This document shows, in pieces, positions 2,376-57,524 of a stretch of DNA of 64,000 nt. Each line of letters starts with the position of its first letter. Within the stretch, counting starts at the first letter, position 1. The DNA is from Candidatus Fermentibacterota bacterium (GTDB taxonomy: Bacteria > Fermentibacterota > Fermentibacteria > Fermentibacterales > JCC-6), in contig JAUVIR010000003.1 in the NCBI GenBank assembly GCA_030592645.1, positions 1 to 64,000 on the forward strand. The letters run 5' to 3'. The notes beneath the pieces are model-generated. The model was not told where the DNA came from. It saw only the letters and a list, made by a program, of their open reading frames with translations, and made no database searches. The translations under genes were made by a program, and so were the position numbers.

Positions 2376-2414
2376 TTTATTTAGTATGATTATCAACTCG
2401 GGAGGTGAGTTTTC

Positions 2415-21097: not shown

Positions 21098-21170
21098 TCG
21101 TTACAGTGTTCAACATCAATTGACATCCTGCCTTCTACCTATGATTCTTGAACGATTGGAGGGGTATTAT

Positions 21171-39574: not shown

Positions 39575-40813
39575 TCAGGATGGTCTGTGATAACCCTTTT
39601 TTCTTTTCCGCCCGGGAAATAGCTGGCTTCTCGAGATCTTCAGTACATTTTTCCAGAATGGACCGGTAGTGGAATCGTCCAGAAGCTGTTTCGTGTAAGT
39701 GATAACGGCAATCCATAGAAGGGAAAGGAAGAAGGCCAGTGCGGTGTACCGGATAACCATTTTGCCTCTCTTGGGGTAGGATCTAAGAGCGGAGGGAACG
39801 GCGGGAACCAGTATTTCCAATGTAGGGCTATCCTTCGCTTCCTCAAGTTTAAGGGATTCGAGTTCCTGTCTGAGCATCAGGTAGATTGCCCGTCTGGTTT
39901 CGAGGTTGATTGCGATGTTTTCGTATTCCTTGAGCATGGCAGGCATACTGTCCATCCCCGGGAAGTAGCTGATGCTGTCCCCGGCAGCTTTACCCATCAT
40001 ACTGCTTCTGAGGAACGCAACCTTCCTGGCTATCTCCAGATACGCTGTGCTGGATGATGACATTGTACCGCTGACACCGGCAAGTTCAGCTTCTGCAAGG
40101 ATCAGCTCAGTCTCAAGGGTACCCAGCATGTCCATGGACAGAACACCCTGATGTTCGGGAAACAGCAATCCGGTTTCCGCGCGGAATTGCTCCATTCTAT
40201 CCTGCGCTATAAGAAGGGATTCCTCAGCCGCGCTTAGAAATTCTTCTGCTGCCAGTCTGCTTCTCCGGGCTCTGCTGGTAATTATCGTTGACAGCTCCTC
40301 ATTGGAGAATGCTATGATGTCGTTCACGATAGCAGCTGCATTTTCCCTGCTGTCAGCTTCCATTGATACAACAAAAAACCCTTCGGGAGAAAGGAAGACG
40401 GAAGCCTTCTTCCTGAACTCCAGCAGAGCATCGTCCATCGTTGGGACTTTCATGTCCGCCAGAAGGTCATACTTGAAAATTATCCGTTCACAAACCGCTC
40501 TGGAGGTAACAACCTGGAAAACAAGGTTGATATCAAGCGCAGTTGGCCCCATGTTCATCATGCTTCCGATACCGGACAGCTGATCGGGCAGGAGATCACC
40601 TGCAAGTCCGGCCAGCCCCGCAAGACCCATGGATGTCTGCTGGCCGCCGGGGACAACGGTAATTGCAGAAGCGGTCCAGTACTGTTTTCTTGTCAGTGCC
40701 CATACTGCCGAGGCGAGAGCCACCACAAGACAGAGCACCGCTATTCTGCGCAGGTTCGAGGCAATGGAGCGAATCCACTTGCCCGAGAAGGAGTTCTCTA
40801 TGTTTTTTTCCAT
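39575..40813 (-). CDS. Wzz-type polysaccharide chain-length/co-polymerase protein
   Basis: 412 residues. An N-terminal membrane helix (about 22-40: IAVLCLVVALASAVWAL) is followed by the Wzz motif (RKQYWTASAITVVP) and a long periplasmic region with coiled-coil heptads (ARRSRLAAEEFLSAAEESLLIAQDRMEQF). A second membrane helix lies near 365-385 after the Pro-rich VPAVPSALRSYPKRGK. There is no tyrosine-kinase domain, so it is the short class. It sets polymer length or couples synthesis to export with the Wza-like protein 10 nt upstream in the operon. Confidence 0.9.
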   Translation of the reverse strand: MEKNIENSFSGKWIRSIASNLRRIAVLCLVVALASAVWALTRKQYWTASAITVVPGGQQTSMGLAGLAGLAGDLLPDQLSGIGSMMNMGPTALDINLVFQVVTSRAVCERIIFKYDLLADMKVPTMDDALLEFRKKASVFLSPEGFFVVSMEADSRENAAAIVNDIIAFSNEELSTIITSRARRSRLAAEEFLSAAEESLLIAQDRMEQFRAETGLLFPEHQGVLSMDMLGTLETELILAEAELAGVSGTMSSSSTAYLEIARKVAFLRSSMMGKAAGDSISYFPGMDSMPAMLKEYENIAINLETRRAIYLMLRQELESLKLEEAKDSPTLEILVPAVPSALRSYPKRGKMVIRYTALAFFLSLLWIAVITYTKQLLDDSTTGPFWKNVLKISRSQLFPGRKRKKGYHRPS

Positions 40814-40822: not shown

Positions 40823-41962
40823 CTAGTTACTGATCGCATAAACTGTTATACCAATCGAAATTACCGAAGTTATCAGCGAAATCAGAACCGCATTCTTGTT
40901 GAACCAGTTGTAGTTCACGTTCACAACATCTCCGGGCATAAGACGAGCGTCTTCAATAATCCCGTCAATCTCATGATCCTGACCGTTCCTATGAACAGAT
41001 ATCCCGCTTCCTGCAGTACTGATCGCACCGCCAGCCGTGACAATATAATCCCGGACAGTGCTCTCGGGATTGTAAGGCACTGAGCCCGGAACACCTACCG
41101 CACCGCCAACTGTAATCGAATCCCGCAGAGAAACAAAGATTATTGTATCACCTGGAAGAAGCCAGGTACTTATGAAACCCTGCTCCTGATCCCACACCGG
41201 TATCATGGTTTCGTCTCTGATTATTCTGCATTCGGAGAGTCTGATATTGCCCGATACTCCACCCATTCTGCCAAGAAGGGATTCGAAATCCTCCTCCGGC
41301 TGGAGTTCACGCGTCTCCAGAACATTAGCGGTACTCAGAAGATAAACGGGGTTCACACAGACATCGATGATAATACCTGCGTTATTGGTAAGAAACGGAT
41401 CGGAAACGTAAGATACGCTGCCCGGGTGGATATTGAGATCGATATCAAGCGTATCTCCGGAATCCGAATACATTGCTCCCCTGCGTGACCCAAAGGATGA
41501 AATACCGCCTGCCGCAAAAACAGCATCGGATACCCTGTTCAATGCTGTAAGCTGGTAGGTGCCCGGTTCGTTAACCATACCCCCCACGTTGATCCGCAGC
41601 ACCCGCGGTTCTGAAAGGGATAACGTAACGCGGATTGACGGATAATAACCGGCTGCTTTTCTCTGGAGGGAGTGCTGAGCTTCATCTATTGTTATACCGT
41701 TCACGCTTACAGCGCCTATTCCGGATACCGATAGATATCCATCTCCCCCTACAGTACACTGAATCCAGGGGTAAACACCGGCGCTCAGCAGAATCTGGCT
41801 GGACCCGCCTTCCACAACAACAGATACGATGTCTCCGGGACCAAGAACGTAGGAGCTTCTGTCCGCCAGTTCAAGAACGGACGATTCGGGGTACGGAATA
41901 TCCTGTGGAGAGAGCGGCGAGGGTACGGTTCCAAAGGCTATAATCATAACTGTAATCAGCAT
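40823..41962 (-). CDS. Wza-like polysaccharide export protein with SLBB domains
   Basis: 379 residues. A short signal peptide precedes YVLGPGDIVSVVVEG, the Poly_export domain start (YxLGPGDxV). SLBB-type repeats follow: VLRINVGGMVNEPGTYQL, and SITVGGAVGVPGSVPYNPESTV. The C-terminus has one hydrophobic helix (VLISLITSVISIGITVYAI), which in Wza spans the outer membrane. No lipobox Cys is seen. It is expected to form the outer-membrane channel for the polymer. Confidence 0.92.
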   Translation of the reverse strand: MLITVMIIAFGTVPSPLSPQDIPYPESSVLELADRSSYVLGPGDIVSVVVEGGSSQILLSAGVYPWIQCTVGGDGYLSVSGIGAVSVNGITIDEAQHSLQRKAAGYYPSIRVTLSLSEPRVLRINVGGMVNEPGTYQLTALNRVSDAVFAAGGISSFGSRRGAMYSDSGDTLDIDLNIHPGSVSYVSDPFLTNNAGIIIDVCVNPVYLLSTANVLETRELQPEEDFESLLGRMGGVSGNIRLSECRIIRDETMIPVWDQEQGFISTWLLPGDTIIFVSLRDSITVGGAVGVPGSVPYNPESTVRDYIVTAGGAISTAGSGISVHRNGQDHEIDGIIEDARLMPGDVVNVNYNWFNKNAVLISLITSVISIGITVYAISN

Positions 41963-42008: not shown

Positions 42009-42950
42009 TCACTGTAATACCCTCAGTTTCTCTCTGAAATACTCGATGGTTTCAGCCATGCCTTTCTCGAGCCCGATAGTCGGTTCCCATCCGAGTTTTT
42101 CACCCGCCAGAGAAATATCAGGCTTTCTGACTTTTGGATCGTCCTCCGGCAGCTCCATGTGAACTATGGAACTTCGCGTATCAATACGCTCCAGCACAAA
42201 TTCCGCGAAATCCATAATAGTCATTTCCTCCGGATTACCTATGTTCACGGGACCGGGAAAATCCGATTCCATTAATCGAACAAGGCCATCCACCGTATCG
42301 GTAACATAACAGAAACTCCGGGTCTGGCGGCCGTTTCCGAATACTGTAAGATTCCTGTCGGATAAAGCCTGAGAAATAAATGCAGGCACTACACGCCCGT
42401 CATCAGCCCGCATCCTCGGGCCGTAAGTATTAAAAATTCTGGCAACCTTCGTGTTAAGTCCATGAAACCTTCTGTATGCAAAGGTTATGGCTTCTGCAAA
42501 TCTTTTAGCTTCATCGTATACGCCCCTCGGACCAACCGGATTAACATTGCCCCAGTAATCCTCACTCTGTGGATGAACGAGGGGGTCTCCGTAAACCTCA
42601 CTTGTTGAAGCAAGAAGAAACCCTGCTTCCTTGACAAGCGCCAGACCAAGGGTTTTATGAGTTCCGAGGGAACCCACCTTCAGGGTCTGTATCGGATAAG
42701 TCAGGTAATCTATAGGGCTTGCGGGGGAAGCAAGATGGAAAACAAAATCAAGCCTTCCCTGCACAAAGATGTAGTTGGTTACGTCGTGGTGGATGAAAGA
42801 GAAATCTTTCCTGCCGGCAAGATGCGCGATGTTGTCCGTTGTGCCTGTAAGCAGGTTGTCCATGGCCAGAACTTCGTGCCCGTCCGAAAGAAGCCTTTCG
42901 CAAAGGTGGCTGCCTATGAACCCTGCACCGCCGGTTACAAGGATCCTCAT
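42009..42950 (-). CDS. UDP-glucuronate decarboxylase (UDP-xylose synthase) type SDR
   Basis: 313 residues, an extended SDR. The NAD loop is [13 protein letters not shown]. The UXS-specific [21 protein letters not shown] and [18 protein letters not shown] (catalytic YxxxK) are present, as is [17 protein letters not shown]. It converts UDP-glucuronate to UDP-xylose. The start overlaps the rmlB stop by 4 nt. A UDP-glucose dehydrogenase supplying UDP-glucuronate is not in the window. Confidence 0.9.
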
Positions 42951-43972
42951 TTGCTCTCCCTGGAATTTGTCAATCTGTCATGATACATGGAAAGGTAGTA
43001 CTCCCTGAATTCACCGGACTTCACTTTCTGCCACCATACACTGTTCCTGCTGTACCAGTCTACGGTTTTTCTGAGGCCTTCCCCGAAGCCTGTGGAGGCC
43101 TTCCAACCGATCTCCTTCTCGATAAGACTGACATTCAGTGCGTACCTTCTATCATGACCGGGGCGGTCTTCAATGTATCTGACAAGGCTTTTATCGGCAC
43201 CAGTGATCTCCGGTATGGAGGAGGTAACTTCCCTGTTGTTGTATTCCTGTCCCGCTCCGATGTTGTATATCCTGCCCGGCTCAGATTTTTCCACAACCAT
43301 GATCAGCGCGTTACAGTTATCCTCAACGAACAGCCAGTCTCTCCTGTTAAGGCCGTCTCCATAAAGGGGAAGAGGCTCGCCGGTCATGGCATTGGTTATG
43401 AAAAGCGGGATAAGCTTTTCCGGGTACTGGAAGGGACCGTAGTTATTGGATGCCCTGGTTACGGTTACCGGAACCCCGTACGTAGTCCAGTAGCTCATAG
43501 CCAGAAGTTCGCCTCCGGCTTTCGAAGCAGCGTAAGGGCTTCTGGGCGCAAGCTGATCAGTTTCCAGGGAATTTCCCTGCTCTACACTGCCGTACACCTC
43601 ATCCGTTGAGATCTGCAGGAAGAGCTGCCTCTTTTCCTTTCTGAATTCTTCAAGAAGAACTCTTACTCCCTCGATATCAGTCCGTACGAATGAGGAGGCA
43701 TCATCAATGGATCTGTCCACATGGGTTTCAGCTGCGAAATTAACTACGGTATCGCATCCTTCCATCGCTTGTGATACGGCCTTTTCATCGCAGATATCTC
43801 CCAGAACAAAGGTGAATCGAGGGTCGGTCTCCAGATCTTCCAGGTTCTCTCTCCTGCCTGCGTATGTCAGTTTATCGAGAACGGTAACTTCCCAGTCAGG
43901 CTTGTTCTTAAGTGCCATTCTGGTGAAGTTGCTCCCGATGAAGCCGGCTCCCCCTGTAACCAGTAATCTCAT
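42947..43972 (-). CDS. rfbB: dTDP-glucose 4,6-dehydratase
   Basis: 341 residues from ATG 43972, which overlaps the rfbA stop (ATGA); the ORF start 84 nt upstream lies inside rfb[17 protein letters not shown] is the NAD loop. [19 protein letters not shown] and [34 protein letters not shown] are diagnostic of RmlB. It makes dTDP-4-keto-6-deoxyglucose from dTDP-glucose. rmlC and rmlD are missing here, so the product may not be rhamnose, or those genes lie elsewhere. Confidence 0.95.
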
Positions 43973-44703
43973 ATCGGGTCTCCCCTGCGAAGTTCTCTTG
44001 CCATGATTCCCGCCTGAAGCAGACCATCGATACTGCATCCGGAATCTGCCCACCATCCGCAGATGATCTGGGCATGAAGCTTGTTCAGATTCAGGTAAGC
44101 GTTGTTGATATCCGTTACTTCAAGTTCACCCCTGGCAGATGGCTCAAGGCTGTCTATTACCTCAAATACAAAACTATCATACATATAAACACCTATCACG
44201 GCATAACTGCTTTTGGGTCTCTTCGGTTTTTCCTCGATCGATATCACCCTGGTGCCGTCCAGTTCCGCAACACCGTAATCACTCGGATTATCAACTGTTT
44301 TCAGGAGAATTCTAGCGCCCTCTTTCTGATCTTTAAAGGAGGCTATTATGGAAGCCAGGGAATCCTCAAGGATATTATCACCAAGGATAACGACGAATTT
44401 ATCGCCCCCTATGAAGGTTCTTGTAAGGCCTATGGCTTCGGCAATTCCCCCCTCATTAACCTGGTAGGCATAGTTGAGTGTATTTAGCCCGAATTCCGAT
44501 CCATCCCCCAGCAACCTCAGGAAATCACCGGCGCTGTCTCCTCCGGTAACCAGCATAACATCCTTTATACCAGCTTCAGCAAGCTTCTGAATCGGATAGA
44601 AGATCATCGGCTGATCGTAGACCGGCAGAAGATGTTTGTTGGTTATACTTGTCAATGGTCGCAGCCGGGTACCAAGTCCGCCTGCCAGCACTACACCTTT
44701 CAT
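43969..44703 (-). CDS. rfbA: Glucose-1-phosphate thymidylyltransferase
   Basis: 244 residues from ATG 44703, 3 nt after GAGGATAA. MKGVVLAGGLGTRLRPLT is the nucleotide-binding loop; KHLLPVYDQPMIFYPI, ILGDNI and GEL(E)VTDINN follow as in RmlA. It is shorter than the 290-residue classical form, lacking part of the C-terminal allosteric region. It makes dTDP-glucose for rfbB, with which it overlaps by 4 nt. Confidence 0.94.
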   Translation of the reverse strand: MKGVVLAGGLGTRLRPLTSITNKHLLPVYDQPMIFYPIQKLAEAGIKDVMLVTGGDSAGDFLRLLGDGSEFGLNTLNYAYQVNEGGIAEAIGLTRTFIGGDKFVVILGDNILEDSLASIIASFKDQKEGARILLKTVDNPSDYGVAELDGTRVISIEEKPKRPKSSYAVIGVYMYDSFVFEVIDSLEPSARGELEVTDINNAYLNLNKLHAQIICGWWADSGCSIDGLLQAGIMARELRRGDPI

Positions 44704-44734
44704 ATTTATCCTCTTCCGATTCTGGGAACCTGTT

Positions 44735-46909
44735 CTAGCGTACAATTGCCAGCTTTATGAATCTGTGATCACCATTCTGTGATATCCGGATTATATAAGT
44801 CCCGGATGCCGTGAGTTCTCCATCCATGTCATATCCATCCCAGGAGAATGTATTCCTGTGCTGTGACAGGGACTCATAAACAAGTTCTCCAGTCAGGTCA
44901 AATAGATGGACATCAAACAGCTCATCCTCAAGTCCTGCTACACCGAGAACCTGTCCATCTCCCGGTATGAAGGGATTCGGATAGACAGTAGCGGTTTCCA
45001 TGGTACCGCTCATACCCTGTTCAAGGGTGAGTTTCCACAAACCGTGATCGGTTACAATGTAAAGAAGTCCATTGTCATAATCGCATGAAGCGTTTCGGAT
45101 ATCAAGGGACTGGAGAGGTGAATTGATGGTATTGTACTCCTCGATGGTTCCGTCCGGATACATTCTGAATAGTCCCTCGCCTGATGCCGCCCACAGGCAG
45201 GATAGATTATCAAAACAGAGCATGGATACATTGCCTGCGATCTGCTCTACATCAGTGATGGTCTCGCTATTGATATTCAGATACACAAGTCCCCCTGTTG
45301 TCCCGATATAGAGCTTTCCATTCCTTGAGACCGCAAGAGCCTGAATATCCTCCGAAGGCAGACCGTCGCCGGTTCCGATAGACATCAGAACCTGTCCAGT
45401 CTGGATATTCGCATTTACAAGTCCCTCCTTGCTGCCCATCCAGGCAATAAGCGGTGATGATGTTACCTCTACCGATCTTACGTCTCCGGATGGCAGTCCA
45501 TCGGGTGGTCCAAATGTCCTCCAGGATGCTGTTTCTGTCTGCCCCGGCGTCCAGGACAGTCTACATACTCCACTGGGTTCGGATGGCGTCGACCAGAATG
45601 CCTCCTGGGCAAACCATACTTCTCCTGTCGGGGATATTGCCATCTCCGTTATCTGATCGTTCAGCAGTCCGCTGTTCTGCATATTCAGGTTAAGGAAAAC
45701 ATCATCGCTTCGCTCCGGTGTCCCGTTCCAGTCAAGCCAGGTGACTCCATAATGCCAGGGAGCAATGAATACGCCGCCGGAATGGTCTGCCAGGCAGGCA
45801 AATAGCTGACCTGGACTCGATAGTTCGTTCGCGAAACCGACCCATCCATATTCACTGTAAACCGCAGCACCCATTGTGTTGCTTGTCACCCAGACATCTG
45901 ACCTTGAATCCACATCAACTGCGTAGAGATCGTTTGATGGGGTGCCCTGAGGCAGTGAGGATTTCCAGGAGTTCAGCGTTCCCAGACCGACACCATTGCC
46001 GCTGGCTCTGTCAACCGCATATACCGAGTGCTGTCCGATTGCAAGTTGACCGCCCGGGAGCCAGCTGATAGCCTCGATCACCTGACCTTCCAGGCCAACT
46101 GATCCGGATGTCCAGAGTGATCCATCGTAAATTGCGACATTCCCGTCGCCCCCCACTGCAAGCTCTCCATTGGATTCTGCAAGAGAAACCGGATAGCTGC
46201 CTGGATAAGAGCTGTCCAGCCTCCAGTCCAGGCCGGGTGCCAGGTAGTAAAGAGCATCAGTAGAAGCCGCCCAGACAGTATCGCCTGCAACCAGAATATC
46301 CTGTACAATTATGTTCGCTACGACAGGGTAGTTCAACCAGGAGTCGGGTTGTCCGGGGTAATGACCCGACCGAAGCAAGACCAGGCCATCAGCGGTTCCA
46401 ACAAAGAGTCCCGAATCAATACTTGCAACACAATTTACGACATCCGAAGGCAGTCCGCCGCCTGTAGTAAATTCTGTCCAGACCTCGAAATATCCGAATT
46501 CTCTGCTGCACAGTCCTTCTGTGGTGCCGGCCCAGATGGTAGTGTCAGGAAGAATGCAGTTGATGACAAGTGATATCGGCAATCCCTCAAGCTGTCCGTA
46601 ATGCTGTATCCCGCCCGAAGCCAGGCCCACATCAATACCGCCTCCGTATGTCCCTATCCAGAGGTTCCCGAAAGAATCCCTTGCAAGACACCTCGCGTCA
46701 CTGTGTGCAAGCTTTCCCGGACTGGTCCAGGTGGAATCCCAGACGATAGAGCCGGATTCGATCGAACCGAAGATAACACCACCGCTGGTTGCGCCGGTCA
46801 CAGAAGAACTCTCTATCAGAATATCACTGACTCCCCCGAAATGCGTATAGTGGTCCCAATCGGAAATTCTGCCAGTCAGGCTGATAAAGAACATTATCAG
46901 CAGGGTCAT
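44735..46909 (-). CDS. Secreted two-component-type beta-propeller protein with C-terminal sorting-like tail (1 of 2)
   Basis: 724 residues from ATG 46909, which overlaps the preceding epimerase stop (ATGA) and has GGGAGG 7 nt upstream. A signal peptide (MTLLIMFFISLTG) is followed by many reg_prop-type blades such as LWIGTYGGGIDVG, TIWAGTTEGLCS, LFVGTADGLV and LYIGTTGGLVYL, enough for one or two seven-bladed propellers. The last about 85 residues are a FlgD-like tail (VYPNPFIPGDGQ, HLFDLTGELVY, ASGTYIIRIS). These blades usually sense glycans in hybrid histidine kinases, but there is no kinase or membrane anchor. It is embedded in the sugar operon, 31 nt before rfbA. Confidence 0.88.
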   Translation of the reverse strand: MTLLIMFFISLTGRISDWDHYTHFGGVSDILIESSSVTGATSGGVIFGSIESGSIVWDSTWTSPGKLAHSDARCLARDSFGNLWIGTYGGGIDVGLASGGIQHYGQLEGLPISLVINCILPDTTIWAGTTEGLCSREFGYFEVWTEFTTGGGLPSDVVNCVASIDSGLFVGTADGLVLLRSGHYPGQPDSWLNYPVVANIIVQDILVAGDTVWAASTDALYYLAPGLDWRLDSSYPGSYPVSLAESNGELAVGGDGNVAIYDGSLWTSGSVGLEGQVIEAISWLPGGQLAIGQHSVYAVDRASGNGVGLGTLNSWKSSLPQGTPSNDLYAVDVDSRSDVWVTSNTMGAAVYSEYGWVGFANELSSPGQLFACLADHSGGVFIAPWHYGVTWLDWNGTPERSDDVFLNLNMQNSGLLNDQITEMAISPTGEVWFAQEAFWSTPSEPSGVCRLSWTPGQTETASWRTFGPPDGLPSGDVRSVEVTSSPLIAWMGSKEGLVNANIQTGQVLMSIGTGDGLPSEDIQALAVSRNGKLYIGTTGGLVYLNINSETITDVEQIAGNVSMLCFDNLSCLWAASGEGLFRMYPDGTIEEYNTINSPLQSLDIRNASCDYDNGLLYIVTDHGLWKLTLEQGMSGTMETATVYPNPFIPGDGQVLGVAGLEDELFDVHLFDLTGELVYESLSQHRNTFSWDGYDMDGELTASGTYIIRISQNGDHRFIKLAIVR

Positions 46910-47856
46910 ATTCTTGCCTCCCACCATGAGAATAGTTTTCGAAGACCCTCTTTTCTGTCAACTTCGGGTTTCCATCCCGCCAGGGATCGAAGCCTCGACG
47001 GATCACCCACCTGGAATTCAACATCCGCGGGTCTGAAAAGATCTGGGTCTGTTTTAATTTTTATATCCATTCCTGAGATTTCAATAAGCATGCTTACCAT
47101 GTCAGCGATGCTGATGCCTGCACCAGTGCAGACATTATATACACTTCCCGGCCGGCCCAGGCTCAGAATGCACCTGTAGGCTCGTACCACATCGGTTACA
47201 TACAGGTAGTCCCTTACCGGGCTGAGGTTTCCGACACGAATAATGTTGTTCCCGCTCCGACGCGTATCGAGGATTCTTCTGCAGAATGATGGCAGTGCAA
47301 AATCCCTGGATTGTCCCGGACCGAAATGGGGGAATGAGCGGGCAATAACAATATCAAGGTCGTAACTCCGGGCGAATTGAAGAGCTGCGATTTCAGCTGC
47401 AGCCTTGGTTGTTCCGTAAGGGTTCCTGGGACCTATTTCGCAGTTTTCGGAAATCAGATCATCTGTTGACTTGTACACCTCTGATGAGCTTACCAGAAGC
47501 ATCCTAGCCTTTGGACATTCTGAAATCATGTACTCAAGGACAGACAGGGTTCCCATGAGATTGATCTGATAAACCCTGTGCACTTCTTTCAGGGATTCTG
47601 AAACTGAACTCATTGCCGCCAGATGTATGATGTACCGCACGAATCCAAGTTCTGCAGGCGGCGTGGAGGGAAGACTCCAGCTGATCCTGGTAACCCCCTC
47701 GGGAGCTTCGAAATCCGTGTTTACGTCTGCAGCGAAATCACCCTCACCCATGCCGAGTTCCTTCATAAGATGATAACCCGCAAAACCCGCTGCACCGGTT
47801 ACAAGGATTGGTCCGGGCTCGGGGCTGATATTTCCACTTTGTTGCATATCCGGCAT
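46906..47856 (-). CDS. GDP-4-dehydro-6-deoxy-mannose reductase-like SDR (Rmd type)
   Basis: 316 residues, an extended SDR. ILVTGAAGFAGYHLMKEL is the NAD(P) loop and IIHLAAMSSVSESLKEV is typical. SSSEVYKS and NPYGTTKAAAEIAALQFARSYDLDIVIARSFPHFGPGQ match Rmd and GMD relatives. It probably reduces GDP-4-keto-6-deoxymannose to GDP-rhamnose, or a related sugar; no GDP-mannose dehydratase gene is seen here. GGAGG precedes the ATG and it is coupled to the propeller gene downstream. Confidence 0.85.
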   Translation of the reverse strand: MPDMQQSGNISPEPGPILVTGAAGFAGYHLMKELGMGEGDFAADVNTDFEAPEGVTRISWSLPSTPPAELGFVRYIIHLAAMSSVSESLKEVHRVYQINLMGTLSVLEYMISECPKARMLLVSSSEVYKSTDDLISENCEIGPRNPYGTTKAAAEIAALQFARSYDLDIVIARSFPHFGPGQSRDFALPSFCRRILDTRRSGNNIIRVGNLSPVRDYLYVTDVVRAYRCILSLGRPGSVYNVCTGAGISIADMVSMLIEISGMDIKIKTDPDLFRPADVEFQVGDPSRLRSLAGWKPEVDRKEGLRKLFSWWEARI

Positions 47857-47859
47857 TAT

Positions 47860-48786
47860 TCAATTCCTCCGGCCAAGGTACCGGATCTCCTCTTCGAGCA
47901 GCACTCCGCTGCAGGCGAGGACGGATTCCCGGACAATACCAATAAGCTCCGCTATATCATCGGATGTTGCTTTTCCAGTATTAATAATAAAATTTGCATG
48001 CCTTCTGGAAACCTCTGCTCCGCCGACAGCTCTCCCTTTCAATCCAGCGTCTTCAATAAGCCTGCCGGGAGAGATCCCTTCATCGGGTTTTTTAAACACA
48101 CTTCCCGCGTTGGGGTACTGTAGAGGAAATTTCTCTCTGCGAAGCGAAAGGATTCTCTTCCCTTCAGACCGGAGGAGGGCAGGATCACCTGGCTCAAGCG
48201 ACATTTCCACACCTGTAATAATCGTTCTCTCTTCCTGAAATCTGCTTGATCTGTATCCAAAACAGCATTCTCTGGTCGGCACTGTACTCACAGAGCCTCT
48301 GTAATCTAATACCGTAACACTTTTCAGAGAATCAGCAATTGAATTTCCGTACGCACCTGCATTCATGAATACGGCGCCGCCCAGTGTTCCTGGAATACCG
48401 ATAGCGAATGCAAGCCCCGATGCTCCTCTGCTGCAGGCAGCCCCTGACAGCGACGGCAGGTGAACACCTCCGCCGATTTTGAGATCCCAGCCCTTTTCGG
48501 AGCGATGCCATGCGGTCCGGGCCAGCCCCCCCGAGAGCCTGATAACCACCTCTGTGCAGCCAGCGTCTGAAGCCAGCACATTCGATCCCAGACCCAGGAT
48601 GAACCAGGGAATCCCTTCAGAGAATGTCAGACCAAGCAGGTCGGCAAGCATCCCTGCAGAAGTTACGGTTATCGAGACAGCCGGTCCTCCGGTTCGCCAT
48701 GCAGTCAGTTCTTTCAGCTGCAGAACATTAACATCCCCGGGGAAATGCTCACTGAGCATACCCAGAGCAGATTCAATGCTATTCAA
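47860..48786 (-). CDS. murB: UDP-N-acetylenolpyruvoylglucosamine reductase
   Basis: 308 residues. The FAD-binding motifs WFILGLGSNVLASD and GIPGTLGGAVFMNAGAYG are present. The C-terminal domain has LQYPNAGSVFKKP with the catalytic Ser, and LIEDAGLKGRAVGGAEVSRRHANFIIN. It catalyses the second step of UDP-MurNAc synthesis. The start is TTG (48784-48786) overlapping the GT2 stop; ATG at 48759 is an alternative. A peptidoglycan gene in the middle of a polysaccharide operon is unusual. Confidence 0.95.
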   Translation of the reverse strand: MNSIESALGMLSEHFPGDVNVLQLKELTAWRTGGPAVSITVTSAGMLADLLGLTFSEGIPWFILGLGSNVLASDAGCTEVVIRLSGGLARTAWHRSEKGWDLKIGGGVHLPSLSGAACSRGASGLAFAIGIPGTLGGAVFMNAGAYGNSIADSLKSVTVLDYRGSVSTVPTRECCFGYRSSRFQEERTIITGVEMSLEPGDPALLRSEGKRILSLRREKFPLQYPNAGSVFKKPDEGISPGRLIEDAGLKGRAVGGAEVSRRHANFIINTGKATSDDIAELIGIVRESVLACSGVLLEEEIRYLGRRN

Positions 48787-49714
48787 AATTCCTGCCTGAC
48801 AATCCCAGCAGGCACCCGCCTACTGAAAGGTAAGTAAAGAGAAAAGAGGGTTTTCCAAATTTTTCCATCCACCTCAGAACGCATCTGTATACAGGGGGAA
48901 GAAGGGTCAGCCTGACCAGCACTCTTACAGAAAATGTCAAAGGGTTTCGCGGCTTTGAGAAAACCGGCTTAATCCAGCTGCTTCCCAGTAGGCCTTCCGC
49001 TTCGGGGATTTTCTCTAGAGTGTATTTCAATCCCGAGCCACCGTACTCAACCATTTTCCTTGAATGTTCACGGACAGTGACAGTGTCAAGATGGTACACC
49101 TTCAGATCCGGATCCCAGTGCAGGGATACCCCCTTTTCTGCAAGCCTGAATCCGAATTCGGTATCCTCTCCTCCGTAGTGGTCAATCGCCGGATCGAATC
49201 CGGAGGTTTCGCGGAGAAGTGATGTGGGCAGGCTGACATTGCCTGTCACAAAGTATTTTGGAGGAAAGAAACGGGCAGTCCTGGCGCCCATGCCCCTTGT
49301 GTCGAACCACCGCTGCCAGGGGGAAGCGTCTTTCATCCAGCTGTTGACCCTGGCTCCCATAATCACATCCCCTGCATTCCTGCGGTGCTTTTCAATGTGT
49401 TTCAACAGGATGTCTTCTGGAAACCTTATATCAGCATCCGAAAGGAACGATACAGGCGCGGTGGCAGCCTGCCAGCCGGAGTTTCTCGCAATCGGTCTGT
49501 TGCCGCCGCTTTCTGTATGGATTATCTCGACCCGTACCGTGTCTGGGAAACTCAGGTCGAAATCATCCTCTACGGGAATACTGCTCCCGTCATCTATTAT
49601 TATCAGCTCCCAGCTGATTCCTCCCGTATCCTGTTTTCGAAGACTCTTGAGACATTCGCGAAAATCATCACCGCCATCTTTCACAGGGATCTGAAGGGAT
49701 ATCTCAGGCTTCAT
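48779..49714 (-). CDS. Glycosyltransferase family 2
   Basis: 311 residues. IPVKDGGDDFRECLKSL and ELIIIDDGSS give the GT-A start with the first Asp; the DxD is FLSDADIRFPED. Late motif HYGGEDTEFGFRLAEKG matches the ED acceptor-site pattern of chondroitin-synthase-like GT2s. The C-terminal part has one hydrophobic helix. The start lies inside the flippase 3' end (11-nt overlap). Sugar and acceptor unknown. Confidence 0.9.
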   Translation of the reverse strand: MKPEISLQIPVKDGGDDFRECLKSLRKQDTGGISWELIIIDDGSSIPVEDDFDLSFPDTVRVEIIHTESGGNRPIARNSGWQAATAPVSFLSDADIRFPEDILLKHIEKHRRNAGDVIMGARVNSWMKDASPWQRWFDTRGMGARTARFFPPKYFVTGNVSLPTSLLRETSGFDPAIDHYGGEDTEFGFRLAEKGVSLHWDPDLKVYHLDTVTVREHSRKMVEYGGSGLKYTLEKIPEAEGLLGSSWIKPVFSKPRNPLTFSVRVLVRLTLLPPVYRCVLRWMEKFGKPSFLFTYLSVGGCLLGLSGRNFE

Positions 49715-51140
49715 CAGAAGAATTTCCCTCCAGGCGGGTACCCATTAACCTGAGATATCCTACTCCCAGAACGGTTACGAGCGTGGCCGCAATAACGATT
49801 ATCATTCTGATGCCTGGATTCAGGTTTGCCATGGGTCCGAAAGCGATAGGGGGCAGGACAGTCAGTACGACTACAAAGAAACTTATGGGAAACACCTTTC
49901 TTCCAAGCCAGAAAAGACTGAGGGCCATGAACAGGTTCGTCCCGAGTGTTGCAAATGCAGCGCCCATTGCTCCGGCAACAGGTATCAGACGGAAGTTGAA
50001 TCCTATGTTCAGCATCGCTCCGAAGAGGGTCATACCGGCAATGTATTTGGTCTGCCCTGTCAGCAGACACCCTGTCTGGGAAATGAGAAAAAGCCCGTAA
50101 AGCGCTACCGATCCTGCAAGGGTCGGAAGGACCCGTGCTGCCGGAAGGAACTGCCCGCCGCCTACAAGCGGAACTATCCAGGGAGAGGACATCGCCAGGA
50201 TCAGAGAACCCCAGTTCACAAGCAGCATGAAAAGCAGCCCTGCTCTTCCCAGTTCCGCCAGCGTGCCGCCGGTTCTTTTCTTTCTGAAGATGAACCGCTT
50301 CCAGGCCATATTGAAACCCAGTATCATAGGCATGAGAACAAGGCAGGCTCTGCTTGCCCATTCGTAATATCCGCTCTGGGTCATATCGGGAAGAATACTT
50401 CTCAGCATGAACATATCGGCTGAAGAGAGAATTATCATGGAAAGCGTGGCCGGAATAAGCGGAAGACTGAATCTCAGAATTTCTTTTGTAAGCCCCTCCG
50501 GGCTCTTCAGTTTTTTCGAGTCCGCGGTTTTCTGCAGCATCAGTATTATCGCAGTAACAGCTATCAGGAAGGAGGGCGCCCATCTTGCGGTCATGAACGA
50601 TGGTATCGTATCCATAGATCCGGAATAAAGCAGAAGAGCCAGAAGGCCCAGAGCCATCACTCCTCTTATCAGCTGGAGTATCAGATACCTTCCCGCAAGG
50701 CCATCGGCCCTCGGAATGGAAAGAGCTATCTGAACGTACGCAATACTGGTTCCCAGAAGAATGGCGTGAAGCAGGTAATCCGGATACTGCAGTTTCAGGA
50801 AGGATTTCAGAAAACCCTGCAGAAGCAGAACTGCCCCTACCATCACTATAGTGGGTATTATCGGGAATGTTATCCCTCTTATCAGAACGGCACGGTGCTG
50901 CGTTGTTCTATGCCAGGATCTGATGAGCGCAGTTGGAAGCCCCAGGACTACAATACCGGCAATGGCTTCGGCAAGTATTCTCAATATGCCCAGTTCCCCT
51001 GCAGCGTCTGCTGTAAGATACCGGGACATGAACGGCAGGAATGCCACCTGAACCAGCCCGCTGAAGATCATTGCAACAGCGTAAAATGCGGATTCCCTTG
51101 AAAGGTCTCTGCTATGCGCAGATATGGATTGATCAGCCAT
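49704..51140 (-). CDS. Wzx-type polysaccharide/lipid-linked sugar flippase (MOP family)
   Basis: 478 residues from ATG 51140, inside the 3' end of the upstream gene (8-nt overlap); the ORF start is 54 nt longer. About 12-14 membrane helices. MFLGS-like blocks such as FYAVAMIFSGLVQVAFLPFMSRYLT at the N-terminus fit Wzx/RfbX. It moves undecaprenyl-linked repeat units to the periplasm; its Und-PP recycling enzyme UppP is encoded at 9637. Confidence 0.9.
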   Translation of the reverse strand: MADQSISAHSRDLSRESAFYAVAMIFSGLVQVAFLPFMSRYLTADAAGELGILRILAEAIAGIVVLGLPTALIRSWHRTTQHRAVLIRGITFPIIPTIVMVGAVLLLQGFLKSFLKLQYPDYLLHAILLGTSIAYVQIALSIPRADGLAGRYLILQLIRGVMALGLLALLLYSGSMDTIPSFMTARWAPSFLIAVTAIILMLQKTADSKKLKSPEGLTKEILRFSLPLIPATLSMIILSSADMFMLRSILPDMTQSGYYEWASRACLVLMPMILGFNMAWKRFIFRKKRTGGTLAELGRAGLLFMLLVNWGSLILAMSSPWIVPLVGGGQFLPAARVLPTLAGSVALYGLFLISQTGCLLTGQTKYIAGMTLFGAMLNIGFNFRLIPVAGAMGAAFATLGTNLFMALSLFWLGRKVFPISFFVVVLTVLPPIAFGPMANLNPGIRMIIVIAATLVTVLGVGYLRLMGTRLEGNSSDEA

Positions 51141-52218
51141 CGCAGGGTTCCGCCCATCCAAGATCCCGGTATATCCTGTGCAGTTCCCGGGCAACCGAGA
51201 GCCAGTGATGCTTTTTCCTGATCCATGGCGGGCCTGCTACCGCATGCTTCTCCCTGAGTTCACGATCAAGAACAAGCTCTCTGAGGTCTCTTTTCAAAGT
51301 ATCCGGGGTTGTAAGAAAGAATGGATGATCCGGAATGAACTCCTGATATGCGCGGCTTAAATTAGTTACCGTGGCAATGCCCATTGAAAGGCTCTCAAGA
51401 GAATTCACTCCGTAGCCCATATCCCCGCTGGCAACCTGATCGATAGCAATATGACATGAGGCTTTCATTTGCAGTGCCCGGGCATTCGTCATGTTCTCGA
51501 TCAGGACAAGTTCGACAGGTATCTCTTTCGAAAGGTCCTCCACGGCGCTTATTATCTCTTCTGTGCCTTTTACCGACCTGATCCTGGGTGCATGACAGAT
51601 ACGTACCTTCCCGGGGGACGGGGAAGCCGGAGGCATGGCATTCTGGTCAAAGGGCAGAAAGAGATAATCTACTTCGCGATATCTCTGGAAGAGGTCGAAC
51701 TCACAGGTAAGGTTCAGATCCGTAACATCCCATACGGGTCTAATCGCTCCCCTCATTCTCAGGTCCAGACCGTGATAATAGCATACTATCTTCTTACCTG
51801 CCTTCTTAAGGGCGGTTACATCCCTGCCGTCTCTATAGAAGCTCATTCCGCCTTCAAGGTGGTATATGTCAAAATCCCACAATCCATATTCCTCTGCAGC
51901 CCTGTTGATAATCGGTTTCCATACCATATCCCTGAACCTGAGCATCAGGTTTTCGATCGTTCCGGGATTCCAGAAGATCCGCTCTGTTGTTCCGGTGTAG
52001 GGAACCTGCAGGCTTCCAGCCTTTACCAGTTTCTTGAGCGAAAGCAGCCAGTCCATGGGACCGACAAAAGGGAGGTTCAGGCATATATCTTCCTCGTACA
52101 GGTTGGCAGCCCTGTAAAAAGTGACAAGCCGGCTTTCATGGCCAAGCTCTACATGTCCACGGACGAAAAGGTCGATAGTTCCAGTATAGTTCTGCGGTGA
52201 AAGATGAAGGATCTTCAT
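51133..52218 (-). CDS. Glycosyltransferase (GT-B type)
   Basis: 361 residues from ATG 52218, overlapping the preceding stop (ATGA). MKILHLSPQNYTGTIDLFVRGHVELGHESRLVT is a normal GT-B first strand. The C-terminal half has ICHAPRIRSVKGTEEII, then IAIDQVASGDMGYGVNSLESLSMGIATVTN, a GT4-like donor-site helix with E-x-x-x-x-G. The ORF track start 66 codons upstream lies in another gene. Sugar unknown. Confidence 0.85.
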   Translation of the reverse strand: MKILHLSPQNYTGTIDLFVRGHVELGHESRLVTFYRAANLYEEDICLNLPFVGPMDWLLSLKKLVKAGSLQVPYTGTTERIFWNPGTIENLMLRFRDMVWKPIINRAAEEYGLWDFDIYHLEGGMSFYRDGRDVTALKKAGKKIVCYYHGLDLRMRGAIRPVWDVTDLNLTCEFDLFQRYREVDYLFLPFDQNAMPPASPSPGKVRICHAPRIRSVKGTEEIISAVEDLSKEIPVELVLIENMTNARALQMKASCHIAIDQVASGDMGYGVNSLESLSMGIATVTNLSRAYQEFIPDHPFFLTTPDTLKRDLRELVLDRELREKHAVAGPPWIRKKHHWLSVARELHRIYRDLGWAEPCDG

Positions 52219-53507
52219 GCTGCAATCTTCCCTGCACGCCGGCTTTTCTTCAGAACAGATATTCCGGTCGCTGCCAGTACCGATGCGGCTATTGTCTGAG
52301 CAAGAACCCCTATCCAGATTGATATCCCGGCAGATGCTGCAGCAGTTGCCCCGAAAAGATCCGGGACCCCGGCGGCAAAATTTCTGAATGCTGAAATAAG
52401 CGGAGAGGAGGACCATGTCCAGAGTACTGCCTGCCGGGAAGGTTCATCGAAAAGGTCAGCACCGCTGGTCTGCTCAAGCAGGCAGGGATTACTCCAGAAG
52501 GCGGGAATGCAGACGATAACACCAAGTATGGCAATTGCAGGAAAAAGTTTCCCACCCGCACCCCTGAAGGAAAGCGGGAGAAGCAGAAACGGCAGTGTCG
52601 TAAAAAGAAACCTGGGGCCCCATCCTGTGCCGCCGGACCAGTCGTGAAGCATTCCATGGAAAATGAGAGAGAGAACAAAAGGGGTCCAGAGTCTCCAGTC
52701 CTTCTGAAAATACAGCGCGAAGATACAGAGCGGAGCATAGAATAGAAGCCCCTTGCCCGGACTGAGCAGAAGTCCTGGTATACCACCTTTGAAGGGCTCA
52801 AAAGCAATTGCGGGATCCTGCCCATGGCCGTCAAGGAATGGATTTCCAAACCGGTACCAGTTCAGGAAGAGTATAAGAAGAAGAAAGGGAACGAGCCCGC
52901 TCAGGAGTTTTTTCATGCTCTTCCAGTCATTCGCGAACAGAGGAAGAAGAAGCACGCTGTCAGCTCTCACAAGGATGGCAAAACCGAGACAGAGACCGGC
53001 TGCCAGCGATCGATCGCTGAGGAAAAAATAGAAGCCTGCCATGGCTGCGGCAGCAGCAGCAGTGACATCGAAAGTCATTCTTCCGTAAACAAGGACCATT
53101 CCGCAGATGGCAATACCTATGAATCGCATGACGGGTACATCGGAGTACTTTGCGACGGCAGAAGCGTACCAGAATCCGATCAGCGCAAGGCTGAAACCTG
53201 CGTTCAGAAGAGCCATCACCAGCTTGCCGCCATTCAATCCAAATAATTGTCCTGCAACTGCGGCGGGAATAAGGAGGATCGAGAACCCTGCGCCATGCGG
53301 GACGAAAAGACCGGGTCTGGCACCCTGAACTACCCAGCCGAAATCCCCCGAAACTGTCATGAATGGTCTCTGACCTGTAAATGAACCGGCAACATCATAC
53401 TGGGCAAGCACATCCGTTGTGTACATTCTGCCGCCGAAAACAAGTGCGAGCAATGCTGCCCATAGCAGGATCAGAGCACGAAGACGGGATTTATGAAGTT
53501 GTTCCAC
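52215..53507 (-). CDS. Polytopic membrane protein, likely lipid-linked-sugar glycosyltransferase or polymerase-like
   Basis: 430 residues, about 10-11 membrane helices. GTG start overlapping the FemAB-like stop by one base. The first loop holds YDVAGSFTGQRPFMTVSGDFGWVV and there is an Asp in TTDVLAQYD, as in GT-C enzymes (ArnT/PMT-like) whose first loop has a conserved acidic site. No family is certain. In this locus it could be the O-unit polymerase (Wzy), which is otherwise missing, or a sugar transferase using the polyprenol-P-mannose made by the gene at 56731. Confidence 0.65.
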   Translation of the reverse strand: MEQLHKSRLRALILLWAALLALVFGGRMYTTDVLAQYDVAGSFTGQRPFMTVSGDFGWVVQGARPGLFVPHGAGFSILLIPAAVAGQLFGLNGGKLVMALLNAGFSLALIGFWYASAVAKYSDVPVMRFIGIAICGMVLVYGRMTFDVTAAAAAAMAGFYFFLSDRSLAAGLCLGFAILVRADSVLLLPLFANDWKSMKKLLSGLVPFLLLILFLNWYRFGNPFLDGHGQDPAIAFEPFKGGIPGLLLSPGKGLLFYAPLCIFALYFQKDWRLWTPFVLSLIFHGMLHDWSGGTGWGPRFLFTTLPFLLLPLSFRGAGGKLFPAIAILGVIVCIPAFWSNPCLLEQTSGADLFDEPSRQAVLWTWSSSPLISAFRNFAAGVPDLFGATAAASAGISIWIGVLAQTIAASVLAATGISVLKKSRRAGKIAA

Positions 53508-54475
53508 TAAACGGTTCCGAACAGTGTGTTTCTGAAAATGCCTCTCGCTGAAAAGGATTCCTTGAACCTGCAGAGGCCATGGTTAATATCCATGTTAAGG
53601 GTAAAAGTACCAAGATCCATATAATGATACCCCATCTGCTTGGCCCATCTTATAACTTCCATGTAGACCAGATTGACCGGCCGCAGTGCCTGGTGCTCCT
53701 GGTCATGGGAGATATAGAAAGCAAGAGTGACCCTTGGATTGCAGTGGAACATAACCATTCCTGCAAGAACTTCTCCGCCCTCCATAGCGATAAATTGTGT
53801 GATATGGTCTTTCCCCAGAAGGGTTCGGAGCCTCTCCAGCTCCTCAAGCGAATGGGTGGGTTTAACATTATGACGCTGCTGAAGATTGGATTCCAGCACA
53901 TGATAAAAAAGTGAGAAATCCGGGTTTTCTTCAACTGTTACACCACTCTTGACCGCTTTCCTTACTCCTCTCAAGGCGGATGAACGAAAGCCAAGCCTGA
54001 GTTCCTCTCCCAGTCTGCTGAGGTCTATCACCGCTGTCAGCTCCCTCTTCCTGTATTCAAATCCACGTTTGATAAGGGAGAACTCCAGATAGTTATGTGG
54101 CCTGCGGTAATAGACTGTTGGAGGAGGGGTCAGTTCGATACCGCGGAAGCCCTGAGACCTGCAATAGGATATGAGTTCGTCTACTATTCCTTCGATCTTG
54201 CTCAGGCCGAGCGAATCGTTGAATACCGGACCGCCGTAGGAGGCTCCCGGATAGGATCTGAACCATGTCCCATCCTCCCTGTCAGCCAGCGCACCGGGGA
54301 TTATGGATTCGGTACCGTTTTTGCTTTCAATGATAAGGTGATGGTTCCTGAATCTGCCTTCCGGATGATAATCCAGAAAATCGGGAGAATGGAAAATTGT
54401 GCCATTGTTGGAGCGGAGGACGAAATTAGTCCATTCCTCTCTGTCGCGGGGCTCGACCTGCCTTATTGTAATCAT
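53507..54475 (-). CDS. FemAB/GNAT-like peptidyl or aminoacyl transferase
   Basis: 322 residues from ATG 54475, overlapping the propeller stop by 4 nt. Two GNAT folds appear in tandem: FRSYPGASYGGPVF in the first and EVLAGMVMFHCNPRVTLAFYISHDQEHQALRPVNLVYMEVIRWAKQMG in the second, the FemAB-like (BioF2-related) pattern. GTFTLNMDINHGLCRFKESF closes the domain as in FemAB. It may add an amino acid to a sugar or to peptidoglycan, or be one of the FemAB-like proteins common in PEP-CTERM and exopolysaccharide loci. Confidence 0.82.
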   Translation of the reverse strand: MITIRQVEPRDREEWTNFVLRSNNGTIFHSPDFLDYHPEGRFRNHHLIIESKNGTESIIPGALADREDGTWFRSYPGASYGGPVFNDSLGLSKIEGIVDELISYCRSQGFRGIELTPPPTVYYRRPHNYLEFSLIKRGFEYRKRELTAVIDLSRLGEELRLGFRSSALRGVRKAVKSGVTVEENPDFSLFYHVLESNLQQRHNVKPTHSLEELERLRTLLGKDHITQFIAMEGGEVLAGMVMFHCNPRVTLAFYISHDQEHQALRPVNLVYMEVIRWAKQMGYHYMDLGTFTLNMDINHGLCRFKESFSARGIFRNTLFGTV

Positions 54476-56715
54476 CTTACTACCGCAACCTTGCATCTGA
54501 TAACATTACTATCCCTCTCAACAAGTACTAAATAAACGCCGCTGGCAACTGAAGCTCCATTCAGTGACCCATCCCAGGTCCAATCCTCCCAGCTGTCCGC
54601 CGTAACGGAACCCAGGTATTCTCCCGTCAGTGAGAAGAATTTTACATCTATCCGTTCATCTGACCCGGACCATGCCATGTACAGTTCTTCCTCTGCAGGA
54701 AGGTAAGGCTGCGGATAGAATATCAGATCCGTGTTCTCGAAAGGACTGTGCTGCGTAATAATCGACCAGAGCCCGACAGCTGAAGAGAAGAAAACAGTTC
54801 CGTCCTCAGGGTTTATTGAGCTGAATTCATTTTCCATTCTGTTTGTTGAAATGTATATCGAATTCGAGCGGGTGAATTCGGTTACATCTCCATCCTCAAC
54901 ACTGTAAATGGCAGATTCAGTCATACACCAGATCACTCCGTTGCTGTCTACCTGCATAGCCTTGACCGACCCTGATACTCCGGCAATATCGACAAACTGG
55001 TTGCCGTTCCATCGGCTTATACCGTTCCCGGTTCCAGCCAGGATATCCCCCCCTGCATCCCTTGCGAAGCAGAAAACCTGGTTCGATTGCAGTCCCCAGG
55101 AGGTGCTGTATGCCTGTCCGTATCCAGGATACCATGTATCGGAGGATTTATCCATAGGGTCTCCTGAGTGTACAAGAAGCTGACACCCTCCCTCCGATGC
55201 AAACGATATCCACAGGCTGTCACTTCCGCACGGAAACAGTGTCTGTATATTTTTGCTGGAGAGGCCGTCGCTCTCTTCCCTTGCAGTCCACTGGAGGGTT
55301 CCCTCTTCGGGTTCACCGGAAACGGCTAGGATACCACTGGGCTCATCGGGTGTCTCCCAGAACGCCTCCTGTGCCACCAGAAGGGCTCCACTTTGAGATG
55401 TCAGCATTATGACCTGGTTATTAAGGAGGGGCGCCACAATCTGGACTACATCGGGGGAGATATCCGGAAGCGAATCGGATACGTAAGTTATTGTCGTGTC
55501 ATCATCCATGGAGTAGGTACCCCTGTCCTCTATCCATGTAAGCCCCCAGTGATAACTTGATGTCCAGATCCCCGAGCAGCCGGTCTTTGCTGCGGAGTAG
55601 GTTCGGAGAGAACGGGGCATATTGATAGTAAGCATATGGAAAGCTCTCCAGCCGCTGTCAGGATAGAACGCTAAAAGACCTAAATGATGACTGCCGATGT
55701 AAACTCTCTCTTCATCCCAGGCCATCTGATAGCAGTTCGGGGTGGCCATGCCGGGCACCGGGATATTTATCCAGGTTCCATTATCAAGATAGCCAAGTCC
55801 ATTACCTGTGTCTTTGCAGCACTCAGCCCAGGAACCGAAACCGCACCATATTTCCCCGGAACCACCGCTCAGACATGAAGCATAGCTTGCCTCCGGATAC
55901 CCGGATCCGTAAAGCTCCCAGGATCCGCCACTGTACAGCATGACCTTATTGCTTGCCGCGATGAGACCATCATCATTAACAAGTAAACCGGTAACAACCG
56001 AATCGGTACTGGCGGAATAGTCCAGCAGCCGTATCCAGCTTTCGCCCATCATTTGAGAAACTCCGCCGGAGCCGTATCCGAATATGGAATCGATGGATGC
56101 AATGTAAATGTCATCTATTCCAAGAGTCAGTGTTGAATCCTCATAGCTTGTCCAGGAGTCGGGATTAAAAATACTTCCGCTCAGATCAAGAGAATACACC
56201 CCTCTGTCTGTTGCCAGGTATAGAGTATTCCCTATACCGCTTACATCTGTCACCTCGGTGGCTGTGAAAGCCCCTCCTGTAAGATCGGAATCTATTGTAA
56301 GAAAACCATCGGCATTTCCACGCGCGAGTCCCCCGTCGGAACCGGCCCAGACATATCCCCCGCCGGTATAAACGGAATTTACGTATCCGGAACCCGGAAT
56401 ACCCTCATATACGGAAAATACCTTCCATGGATCATCCCCCTGCCTTAGAGCCAGACCGCCTCCCCCTGTAGCTACCCACAGAAGAGAATCATCAAAACAT
56501 AGATCTGTAGCGGATATCCAGGGCATATCAGGATATGAAACGCTGTCCAGCCATCCGCCTGCAGGATCGTAATGGATGATCCCGCCGGCAGTCGCACACC
56601 AGACAGTACCGTCATCGCCTGGCACAATAGAGAATATGTAGGACTGGGAGGTTTCAAAACCCCAGTTGAACGAAACACTGCCAATGATTGTCAGAGCAAG
56701 GTATGATGCTATCAT
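54472..56715 (-). CDS. Secreted two-component-type beta-propeller protein with C-terminal sorting-like tail (2 of 2)
   Basis: 747 residues. Signal peptide-like start (MIASYLALTIIGSVS). Repeated blades carry the reg_prop pattern: VWCATAGGIIHYD, LWVATGGGGLALR, VWAGSDGGLARG, LYLATDRGVYSLD and ILAGTGNGISRW. The C-terminus is FlgD-like (YPQPYLPAEEELYMAW, FFSLTGEYLG, ASGVYLVLVERD). It shares the middle block QEAFWETPDEPSGI with the paralogue at 44735 (QEAFWSTPSEPSGV). GGAG lies 10 nt before the ATG. It is translationally coupled to the FemAB-like gene. Confidence 0.88.
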   Translation of the reverse strand: MIASYLALTIIGSVSFNWGFETSQSYIFSIVPGDDGTVWCATAGGIIHYDPAGGWLDSVSYPDMPWISATDLCFDDSLLWVATGGGGLALRQGDDPWKVFSVYEGIPGSGYVNSVYTGGGYVWAGSDGGLARGNADGFLTIDSDLTGGAFTATEVTDVSGIGNTLYLATDRGVYSLDLSGSIFNPDSWTSYEDSTLTLGIDDIYIASIDSIFGYGSGGVSQMMGESWIRLLDYSASTDSVVTGLLVNDDGLIAASNKVMLYSGGSWELYGSGYPEASYASCLSGGSGEIWCGFGSWAECCKDTGNGLGYLDNGTWINIPVPGMATPNCYQMAWDEERVYIGSHHLGLLAFYPDSGWRAFHMLTINMPRSLRTYSAAKTGCSGIWTSSYHWGLTWIEDRGTYSMDDDTTITYVSDSLPDISPDVVQIVAPLLNNQVIMLTSQSGALLVAQEAFWETPDEPSGILAVSGEPEEGTLQWTAREESDGLSSKNIQTLFPCGSDSLWISFASEGGCQLLVHSGDPMDKSSDTWYPGYGQAYSTSWGLQSNQVFCFARDAGGDILAGTGNGISRWNGNQFVDIAGVSGSVKAMQVDSNGVIWCMTESAIYSVEDGDVTEFTRSNSIYISTNRMENEFSSINPEDGTVFFSSAVGLWSIITQHSPFENTDLIFYPQPYLPAEEELYMAWSGSDERIDVKFFSLTGEYLGSVTADSWEDWTWDGSLNGASVASGVYLVLVERDSNVIRCKVAVVR

Positions 56716-56730: not shown

Positions 56731-57438
56731 TCAGAACAGCCATGGAAAACGAAGATGCCATACCATCCAGACAGCTTCCCATACGATGCTTTTAGTCATT
56801 TTAGAGGTGCCCGCATGCCTGTCGACAAAGATTATTGGAACCTCCTTGACCGAACAGCCTGCATTAAAAAGCTTGTAAGTAACTTCTATCTGAAACGAAT
56901 AACCGTCCGATTTAATGCCAGAGAGATCAAGTTTCGCAAGAGCTTCCCTTCTGAATGCCTTGAATCCGCCGGTGGCGTCTTCCAGAGGAAGTCCGGTTAT
57001 CAATTTTGTATACTTATTGGCAAACCAGGAGAGAAGAAGCCTCGAGAGAGGCCAGTTCACCACGTTGACACCGCTGCAGTACCGGGAGCCTATTGCAAGG
57101 TCGTATTCTTCAAGGGCATCGATCAGTTCCACAACCTTTTCGGGTTTGTGTGAGAAATCTGCATCCATCTGGACAACAGGATCTAATTCATCTCTCTCAA
57201 GTGCCCACCCGAAACCTGCAATGTATGCCTGTCCAAGGCCTGCCTTTACCGGACGGCTTAAAAGGTGAACTCTGCCCGTTGACTCGAATTCCAGAACCGC
57301 ATCTCCTGTTCCATCAGGGCTATTATCGTCTACCACAAGTACATCAGGTTTTACAGGCAGGTCAAGGAGAATCGGTATCAGCTTTCTGATATTCTCAAGC
57401 TCGTTGTATGTAGGTACCACAATCAAAGGTGTTTTCAA
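56731..57438 (-). CDS. Polyprenol-phosphate mannosyl/glucosyltransferase (DPM1-like GT2)
   Basis: 235-236 residues from TTG 57438, with GGAGGT three to four nt before it, giving LKTPLIVVPTYNELENIRKLI, the usual N-terminus; the ORF track begins 42 nt upstream at ATG 57480 without a site. The GT-A motifs are VVDDNSPDGT, MDADFSHKPE and GSRYCSGVNVVNWP, then the ATGGFKAFRREAL block of DPM1-type enzymes. It loads a hexose from a nucleotide sugar onto polyprenyl phosphate at the inner membrane. It is the first gene of the long operon. Confidence 0.92.
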   Translation of the reverse strand: MKTPLIVVPTYNELENIRKLIPILLDLPVKPDVLVVDDNSPDGTGDAVLEFESTGRVHLLSRPVKAGLGQAYIAGFGWALERDELDPVVQMDADFSHKPEKVVELIDALEEYDLAIGSRYCSGVNVVNWPLSRLLLSWFANKYTKLITGLPLEDATGGFKAFRREALAKLDLSGIKSDGYSFQIEVTYKLFNAGCSVKEVPIIFVDRHAGTSKMTKSIVWEAVWMVWHLRFPWLF

Positions 57439-57524
57439 AAGACCTCCACTTTCTATATTCGGTTTAATATAATTATTCATTGCAGCACAGGTACAGTATA
57501 TTCAATTCAATCCGGATGGAGATC

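Follow-up and report, generated by a model that had tools for sequence, protein, structure and literature searches.

Duplicated PorZ-like propeller proteins in a conserved polysaccharide gene cluster of Fermentibacterota

Two propeller genes in a polysaccharide cluster

The window analysed here, a stretch of 64,000 nucleotides from a Candidatus Fermentibacterota bacterium, contains a run of minus-strand polysaccharide genes, among which lie two genes for propeller proteins, P0001 and P0002 (Table 1). An earlier note on this DNA had described two proteins of about 730 residues, and both ORFs were found where it had placed them; its term 'giant' was an overstatement. The ATGA overlaps that it reported could likewise be read from the sequence, and from these couplings we derived the likely starts of P0001 and of the FemAB-type gene (54475). 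P0001 probably begins at its second Met, at 46909, giving a product of 724 aa and an overlap with the stop of the preceding epimerase gene.

Table 1. Genes of the polysaccharide cluster, from the first gene of the run
Product	Coordinates	Strand	Remarks
Polyprenyl-phosphate glycosyltransferase, DPM1-like family 2	56731..57480	minus	first gene of the run; homologues 54-56% identical near PorZ at loci L110, L180 and L192
PorZ-like protein 2 (P0002)	54472..56715	minus	747 aa
FemAB-type (VimA-family, TIGR03019) aminoacyltransferase candidate	53507..54496	minus	likely start 54475, ATGA overlap with P0002 stop
Multi-pass membrane protein, probable GT-C (PMT-like) glycosyltransferase	52215..53507	minus	assigned via L181 homologue (25% identity)
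Glycosyltransferase	51133..52416	minus	conserved beyond the order: 45.8% (L181) and 45% (Eisenbacteria L110)
Wzx-like flippase candidate	49704..51194	minus	multi-pass sequence and position; L181 homologue at 28%
Family 2 glycosyltransferase	48779..49714	minus
MurB-like reductase	47860..48786	minus	recurrent cluster member
NDP-sugar epimerase/dehydratase	46906..47856	minus
PorZ-like protein 1 (P0001)	44735..46927	minus	730 aa ORF; two beta-propellers and C-terminal sorting-type domain
RmlA-type sugar nucleotidyltransferase	43969..44745	minus	assigned by reading the sequence and by synteny; likely start 44703
RmlB dTDP-glucose 4,6-dehydratase	42947..44056	minus	TIGR01181, 433 bits (cut-off 365)
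NDP-sugar epimerase/dehydratase	42009..42950	minus
Wza-like polysaccharide export protein	40823..41962	minus	Poly_export and SLBB
Wzz/KpsE-like chain-length protein	39575..40813	minus

The L181 homologue of the probable GT-C enzyme scored 24.8 bits against PF13231 (PMT_2), just below the cut-off of 26.1, and the flippase candidate had no Pfam match. The presence of Wza and Wzz in the cluster points to capsule-type export rather than LPS. The MurB-like gene is of a peptidoglycan type and recurs in this polysaccharide cluster. A short Omp85-like outer-membrane protein is encoded divergently at the cluster head (57480-58565), in a position conserved in relatives, and further tailed proteins are encoded at window positions 1274-3545 and 21120-22994, among them an endonuclease I whose tail is of the FlgD/Por type and an FG-GAP protein.

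Pfam detected Reg_prop repeats in P0001 and P0002 (48.1 and 25.6 bits, both above the gathering score of 20.4). The two proteins align over their full length with 25% identity (E 1e-41), indicating that they are paralogues. They are the only full-length copies in the genome, where all other matches cover the tail only, ruling out many scattered copies. The QEAFWxTPxEPSG block that the earlier note had recognised is present in each, as QEAFWSTPSEPSG and QEAFWETPDEPSG; when the pair was aligned with 17 PorZ-type proteins of other genomes, it proved to be an insertion confined to the pair, a lineage-specific feature and not a general PorZ signature. As to the sorting-like tails, P0001 passed the type A model TIGR04183 (27.0 bits, cut-off 23). 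P0002 did not match that model, but the NCBIfam PorZ model extends with its C-terminal part over the P0002 tail.

Relationship to PorZ

The NCBIfam PorZ model NF052228 matched P0001 at 110 bits and P0002 at 52.6 bits, both below a curated cut-off of 260 bits that only 5 of the 290 genomes searched passed; because of these scores we call the proteins PorZ-like. In PDB sequence searches P0001 retrieved hybrid-sensor propellers and P. gingivalis PorZ (5m11; 2e-13, over its last part and tail), and P0002 retrieved no match. AlphaFold models, made from relatives, had a mean pLDDT of 88 for P0001 and 82 for P0002, with lower confidence in the last domain, and in both models two propellers are followed by a sorting-type C-terminal beta-sandwich. 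For both, the top Foldseek match was 5m11 along the whole chain (P0001, E 3.2e-29, TM 0.65; P0002, E 2.0e-22, TM 0.51). Hybrid sensors ranked after it (TM 0.30-0.36 over both models), a range that we read as a different placing of the two propellers; against the P0001 model, BT4663-type sensors reached 0.33-0.36.

The earlier note had pointed to hybrid kinases, in which such blades sense glycans. Here PorZ proved the nearer relative, in a genome that also encodes the rest of a type IX attachment complex. The pair does share Reg_prop blades and two propellers with the hybrid two-component sensors BT4663, BT3049 and BT4673, but it lacks the Y_Y_Y domain, Pfam found no kinase or response-regulator domain on either chain, and the domains are arranged differently. 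The sensor reading was ruled out by this arrangement, as seen in the TM scores, together with the missing kinase. Like P. gingivalis PorZ (5m11; NF052228), the two proteins combine two propellers with a C-terminal sorting-type domain, similarly arranged overall, and share a conserved C-terminal end (KLAIVR/KVAVVR, as in PorZ proteins from other genomes) and a genomic setting with PorU, PorV-family, PorQ-like and SprA proteins. They differ from it in being two diverged copies, below the equivalog cut-off, with a common insertion. Despite an identity to PorZ-type proteins of only about 16-27%, we conclude that the pair are homologous to PorZ and are not free-standing sensors of glycans.

The P0002 model also aligned to a GH74 enzyme (TM 0.46), as might be expected of secreted, GH74-like propeller enzymes that cleave glycans and trim the polymer. 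This match ranked 26th, far behind PorZ, and neither Pfam nor NCBIfam assigned either protein to a glycosidase family, leaving such an activity highly improbable.

Conservation, duplication and type IX components

One or both copies occurred in 40 of the 42 genomes of the order, the window's genome included, across three families; named relatives are Candidatus Aegiribacteria, Sabulitectum and Fermentibacter (Fermentibacterota). No copy was found in genomes G009 (66% complete) and G039 (95% complete), and in G020 copy 2 lies on a separate contig. Where contigs allow, the two genes share a strand and are separated by about 9.7 kb. A homology-based comparison with eight further genomes, which represent two families and include one covered only partially, gave a single gene order: DPM-like glycosyltransferase, PorZ-like 2, FemAB, membrane glycosyltransferase, glycosyltransferase, Wzx, family 2 glycosyltransferase, MurB, epimerase, PorZ-like 1, RmlA, RmlB, epimerase, Wza and Wzz. 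ORF calling was crude in this comparison, and merged or missed frames left some genes unrecognised. This order-wide synteny rules out a chance neighbourhood and bears out the proposed link to polysaccharide genes, which scattered copies in related genomes would have undone. PorZ elsewhere in our sample is set differently, its commonest neighbours being ribH, a recN-type gene and lnt.

In a phylogenetic tree, the two PorZ-like groups were each monophyletic (100/100) and jointly split from all other PorZ-type proteins (100/99); judged from these sequences, the pair is a lineage-specific duplication. A FastTree analysis placed the three sampled PorU groups in one clade within the order. It follows that PorZ and PorU alike multiplied in this lineage.

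In profile searches of the window's genome, SprA scored 383 bits (cut-off 200), and contig C37 was found to encode two PorU-type sortases in tandem, at 430 and 395 bits against a cut-off of 420. The searches also gave PorV-family barrels above the cut-off (222 bits versus 90) and 108 matches to type A sorting tails. One PorV-family barrel is nearer PorQ (140 bits, versus 63 for PorV), at a score below the PorQ equivalog cut-off. PorU, PorV-family, PorQ-like and SprA proteins thus all co-occur with the PorZ-like pair. The GldM motor (PF12081) was not found in the whole genome, and the core machine or motor may be absent, incomplete or too diverged for this model. LpxC is present, which makes lipid A likely. 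The tandem sortase genes (C37:30015-38357, L057, in the window's genome, G000) flank a sirtuin-like gene, and each product has a GHG motif and a candidate catalytic Cys; a third PorU gene lies beside a PorV-type gene in relatives G001 and G038.

These components bear on whether PorZ-derived proteins might now help to export the polymer or assemble it at the cell surface, for example by holding a Wza-exported chain, instead of protein attachment. The Wza and Wzz genes in the same run are compatible with such a role, and duplication with a lineage-specific insertion would allow a new one. Nevertheless, the genome retains an attachment complex with a multiplied PorU, and we found in it no other PorZ candidate to serve that complex, so that we regard a move to polymer export as very unlikely.

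FemAB neighbour and proposed function

The FemAB-type gene next to copy 2 matched TIGR03019 with 47 bits, below the cut-off of 260, and is the only match to this family in the window's genome. It adjoins copy 2 in 35 of the 37 genomes that have both. Outside the order, TIGR03019 and a long stretch of PorZ were both matched in 22 genomes of the sample. The two genes were direct neighbours in four of these (G044, G050, G099 and G192), against a chance expectation, estimated from genome size, of about one in a thousand per genome; in the other 18 they were not adjacent. At locus L181 (G099), the order is lnt, porZ, femAB, PMT-like gene, glycosyltransferase, Wzx and family 2 glycosyltransferase. 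As lnt is a common neighbour of PorZ elsewhere, this locus joins the lnt-type PorZ neighbourhood to the gene order of the window. The Eisenbacteria locus L110 carries DPM, PorZ, epimerase, DegT, FemAB and glycosyltransferase genes in one stretch.

VimA has been described as a match to the same FemAB family and appears to place serine or glycine on the linking sugar (PMC7468200). The cluster resembles the Wbp/Vim linking-sugar pathway (VimA, TIGR03019) in having a FemAB-type gene beside glycan genes in a type IX genome, but differs from it in carrying RmlA/RmlB and epimerases. We identified no WbpB, WbpE, WbpD or VimE in the window's cluster, and the sole polysaccharide deacetylase match in the genome was a 940-aa ORF elsewhere. 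RmlA and RmlB would permit a deoxyhexose, and Prevotella intermedia uses an N-alanyl deoxyhexose linker (PMC11969387); since that species is without VimA, we offer a deoxyhexose linking sugar here as a suggestion. Earlier work had already connected FemAB/VimA genes with polysaccharide genes and other sortase systems (PMC7468200). PEP-CTERM/exosortase systems similarly tie FemAB and exopolysaccharide genes to a sorting system, but use XrtA, whereas the window's genome has a C25-type PorU sortase and an outer-membrane type IX route.

Sugar binding by PorZ was already proposed from its resemblance to sensors (PMC5121618), and P. gingivalis PorZ binds A-LPS, and then PorU more tightly (PMC8545088). 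If the window pair acts likewise, it would bind the polymer and then hand it on to PorU. We propose, with a probability of roughly 0.7, that P0001 and P0002, as duplicated homologues of PorZ, belong to a type IX attachment complex in which they bind the cluster's polysaccharide and present it to PorU, the FemAB enzyme adding the accepting amino acid. Both proteins would be exported by Sec and then through the SprA translocon by means of their own C-terminal domain, and would be held on the cell surface with PorQ/PorV-like barrels. There they would bind the polysaccharide made by the neighbouring genes and hand it to the PorU sortases, which would remove the tails from some 100 cargo proteins and attach the freshly exposed C-termini to the glycan. 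The accepting amine would belong to an amino acid installed by the FemAB neighbour, as VimA is proposed to do. The cluster as a whole is best read as the probable maker of a type IX anchor glycan, together with the proteins delivering it. Our analysis demonstrates the homology, the fold, the duplication, the synteny and the presence of SprA, PorU, PorV-family and PorQ-like proteins, whereas surface location, glycan binding, transfer of the amino acid and delivery to PorU are inferred from these. The polymer may be either a lipid-linked LPS or a Wza-exported chain. Arguing against the proposal are the PorZ and FemAB scores below cut-off, the low identity to PorZ-type proteins, the presence of two copies versus the usual one, the separate location of porZ and femAB in most genomes outside the order that have both, the capsule-type export genes, the negative GldM search and the lack of an identified Wbp/Vim pathway.

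The earlier note had suggested free, exported anchors or crosslinkers of the surface layer; on such a reading the pair would be ordinary type IX cargo that binds the polymer without a role in the sortase step. Glycan binding by the pair remains likely, and the cargo reading agrees with the P0001 tail passing TIGR04183, with glycan binding by reg_prop relatives and with production of the proteins together with the polymer. It does not account for a whole-chain match to PorZ instead of to sensors, strict conservation of one copy each in nearly all genomes, a FemAB neighbour unique in the genome, or remaining genome matches that cover the tail only, and is in our judgement unlikely. We prefer a shuttle that feeds the sortase because it explains the neighbours better, above all the VimA-type FemAB.

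The individual parts are of known kinds, and type IX secretion has already been stated for the wider FCB group (PMC11205867). Our literature searches found no report combining PorZ with FemAB, or type IX secretion with Fermentibacter; as far as we could find, three things are new: the link of PorZ to FemAB and candidate anchor-glycan genes, the duplication of PorZ, and the occurrence of a type IX attachment complex in Fermentibacterota, a phylum to which the complex is thereby extended. The cluster supports the role proposed for FemAB/VimA enzymes. Few type IX species have a known linking-sugar pathway, and it varies from one to another; through its gene neighbourhood, this conserved cluster offers a means of locating such pathways in many FCB bacteria that are uncultured. 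More tentatively, and with some doubt, it might descend from an ancestral FCB operon type coupling anchor-glycan synthesis, FemAB aminoacylation and PorZ delivery, in which case multiplication of PorZ and PorU in Fermentibacterota could provide parallel attachment routes in each cell.

In one genome outside the order, porZ, femAB and lptD lie in a row (L184:7020-13456), an arrangement that may connect the attachment complex to LPS transport.
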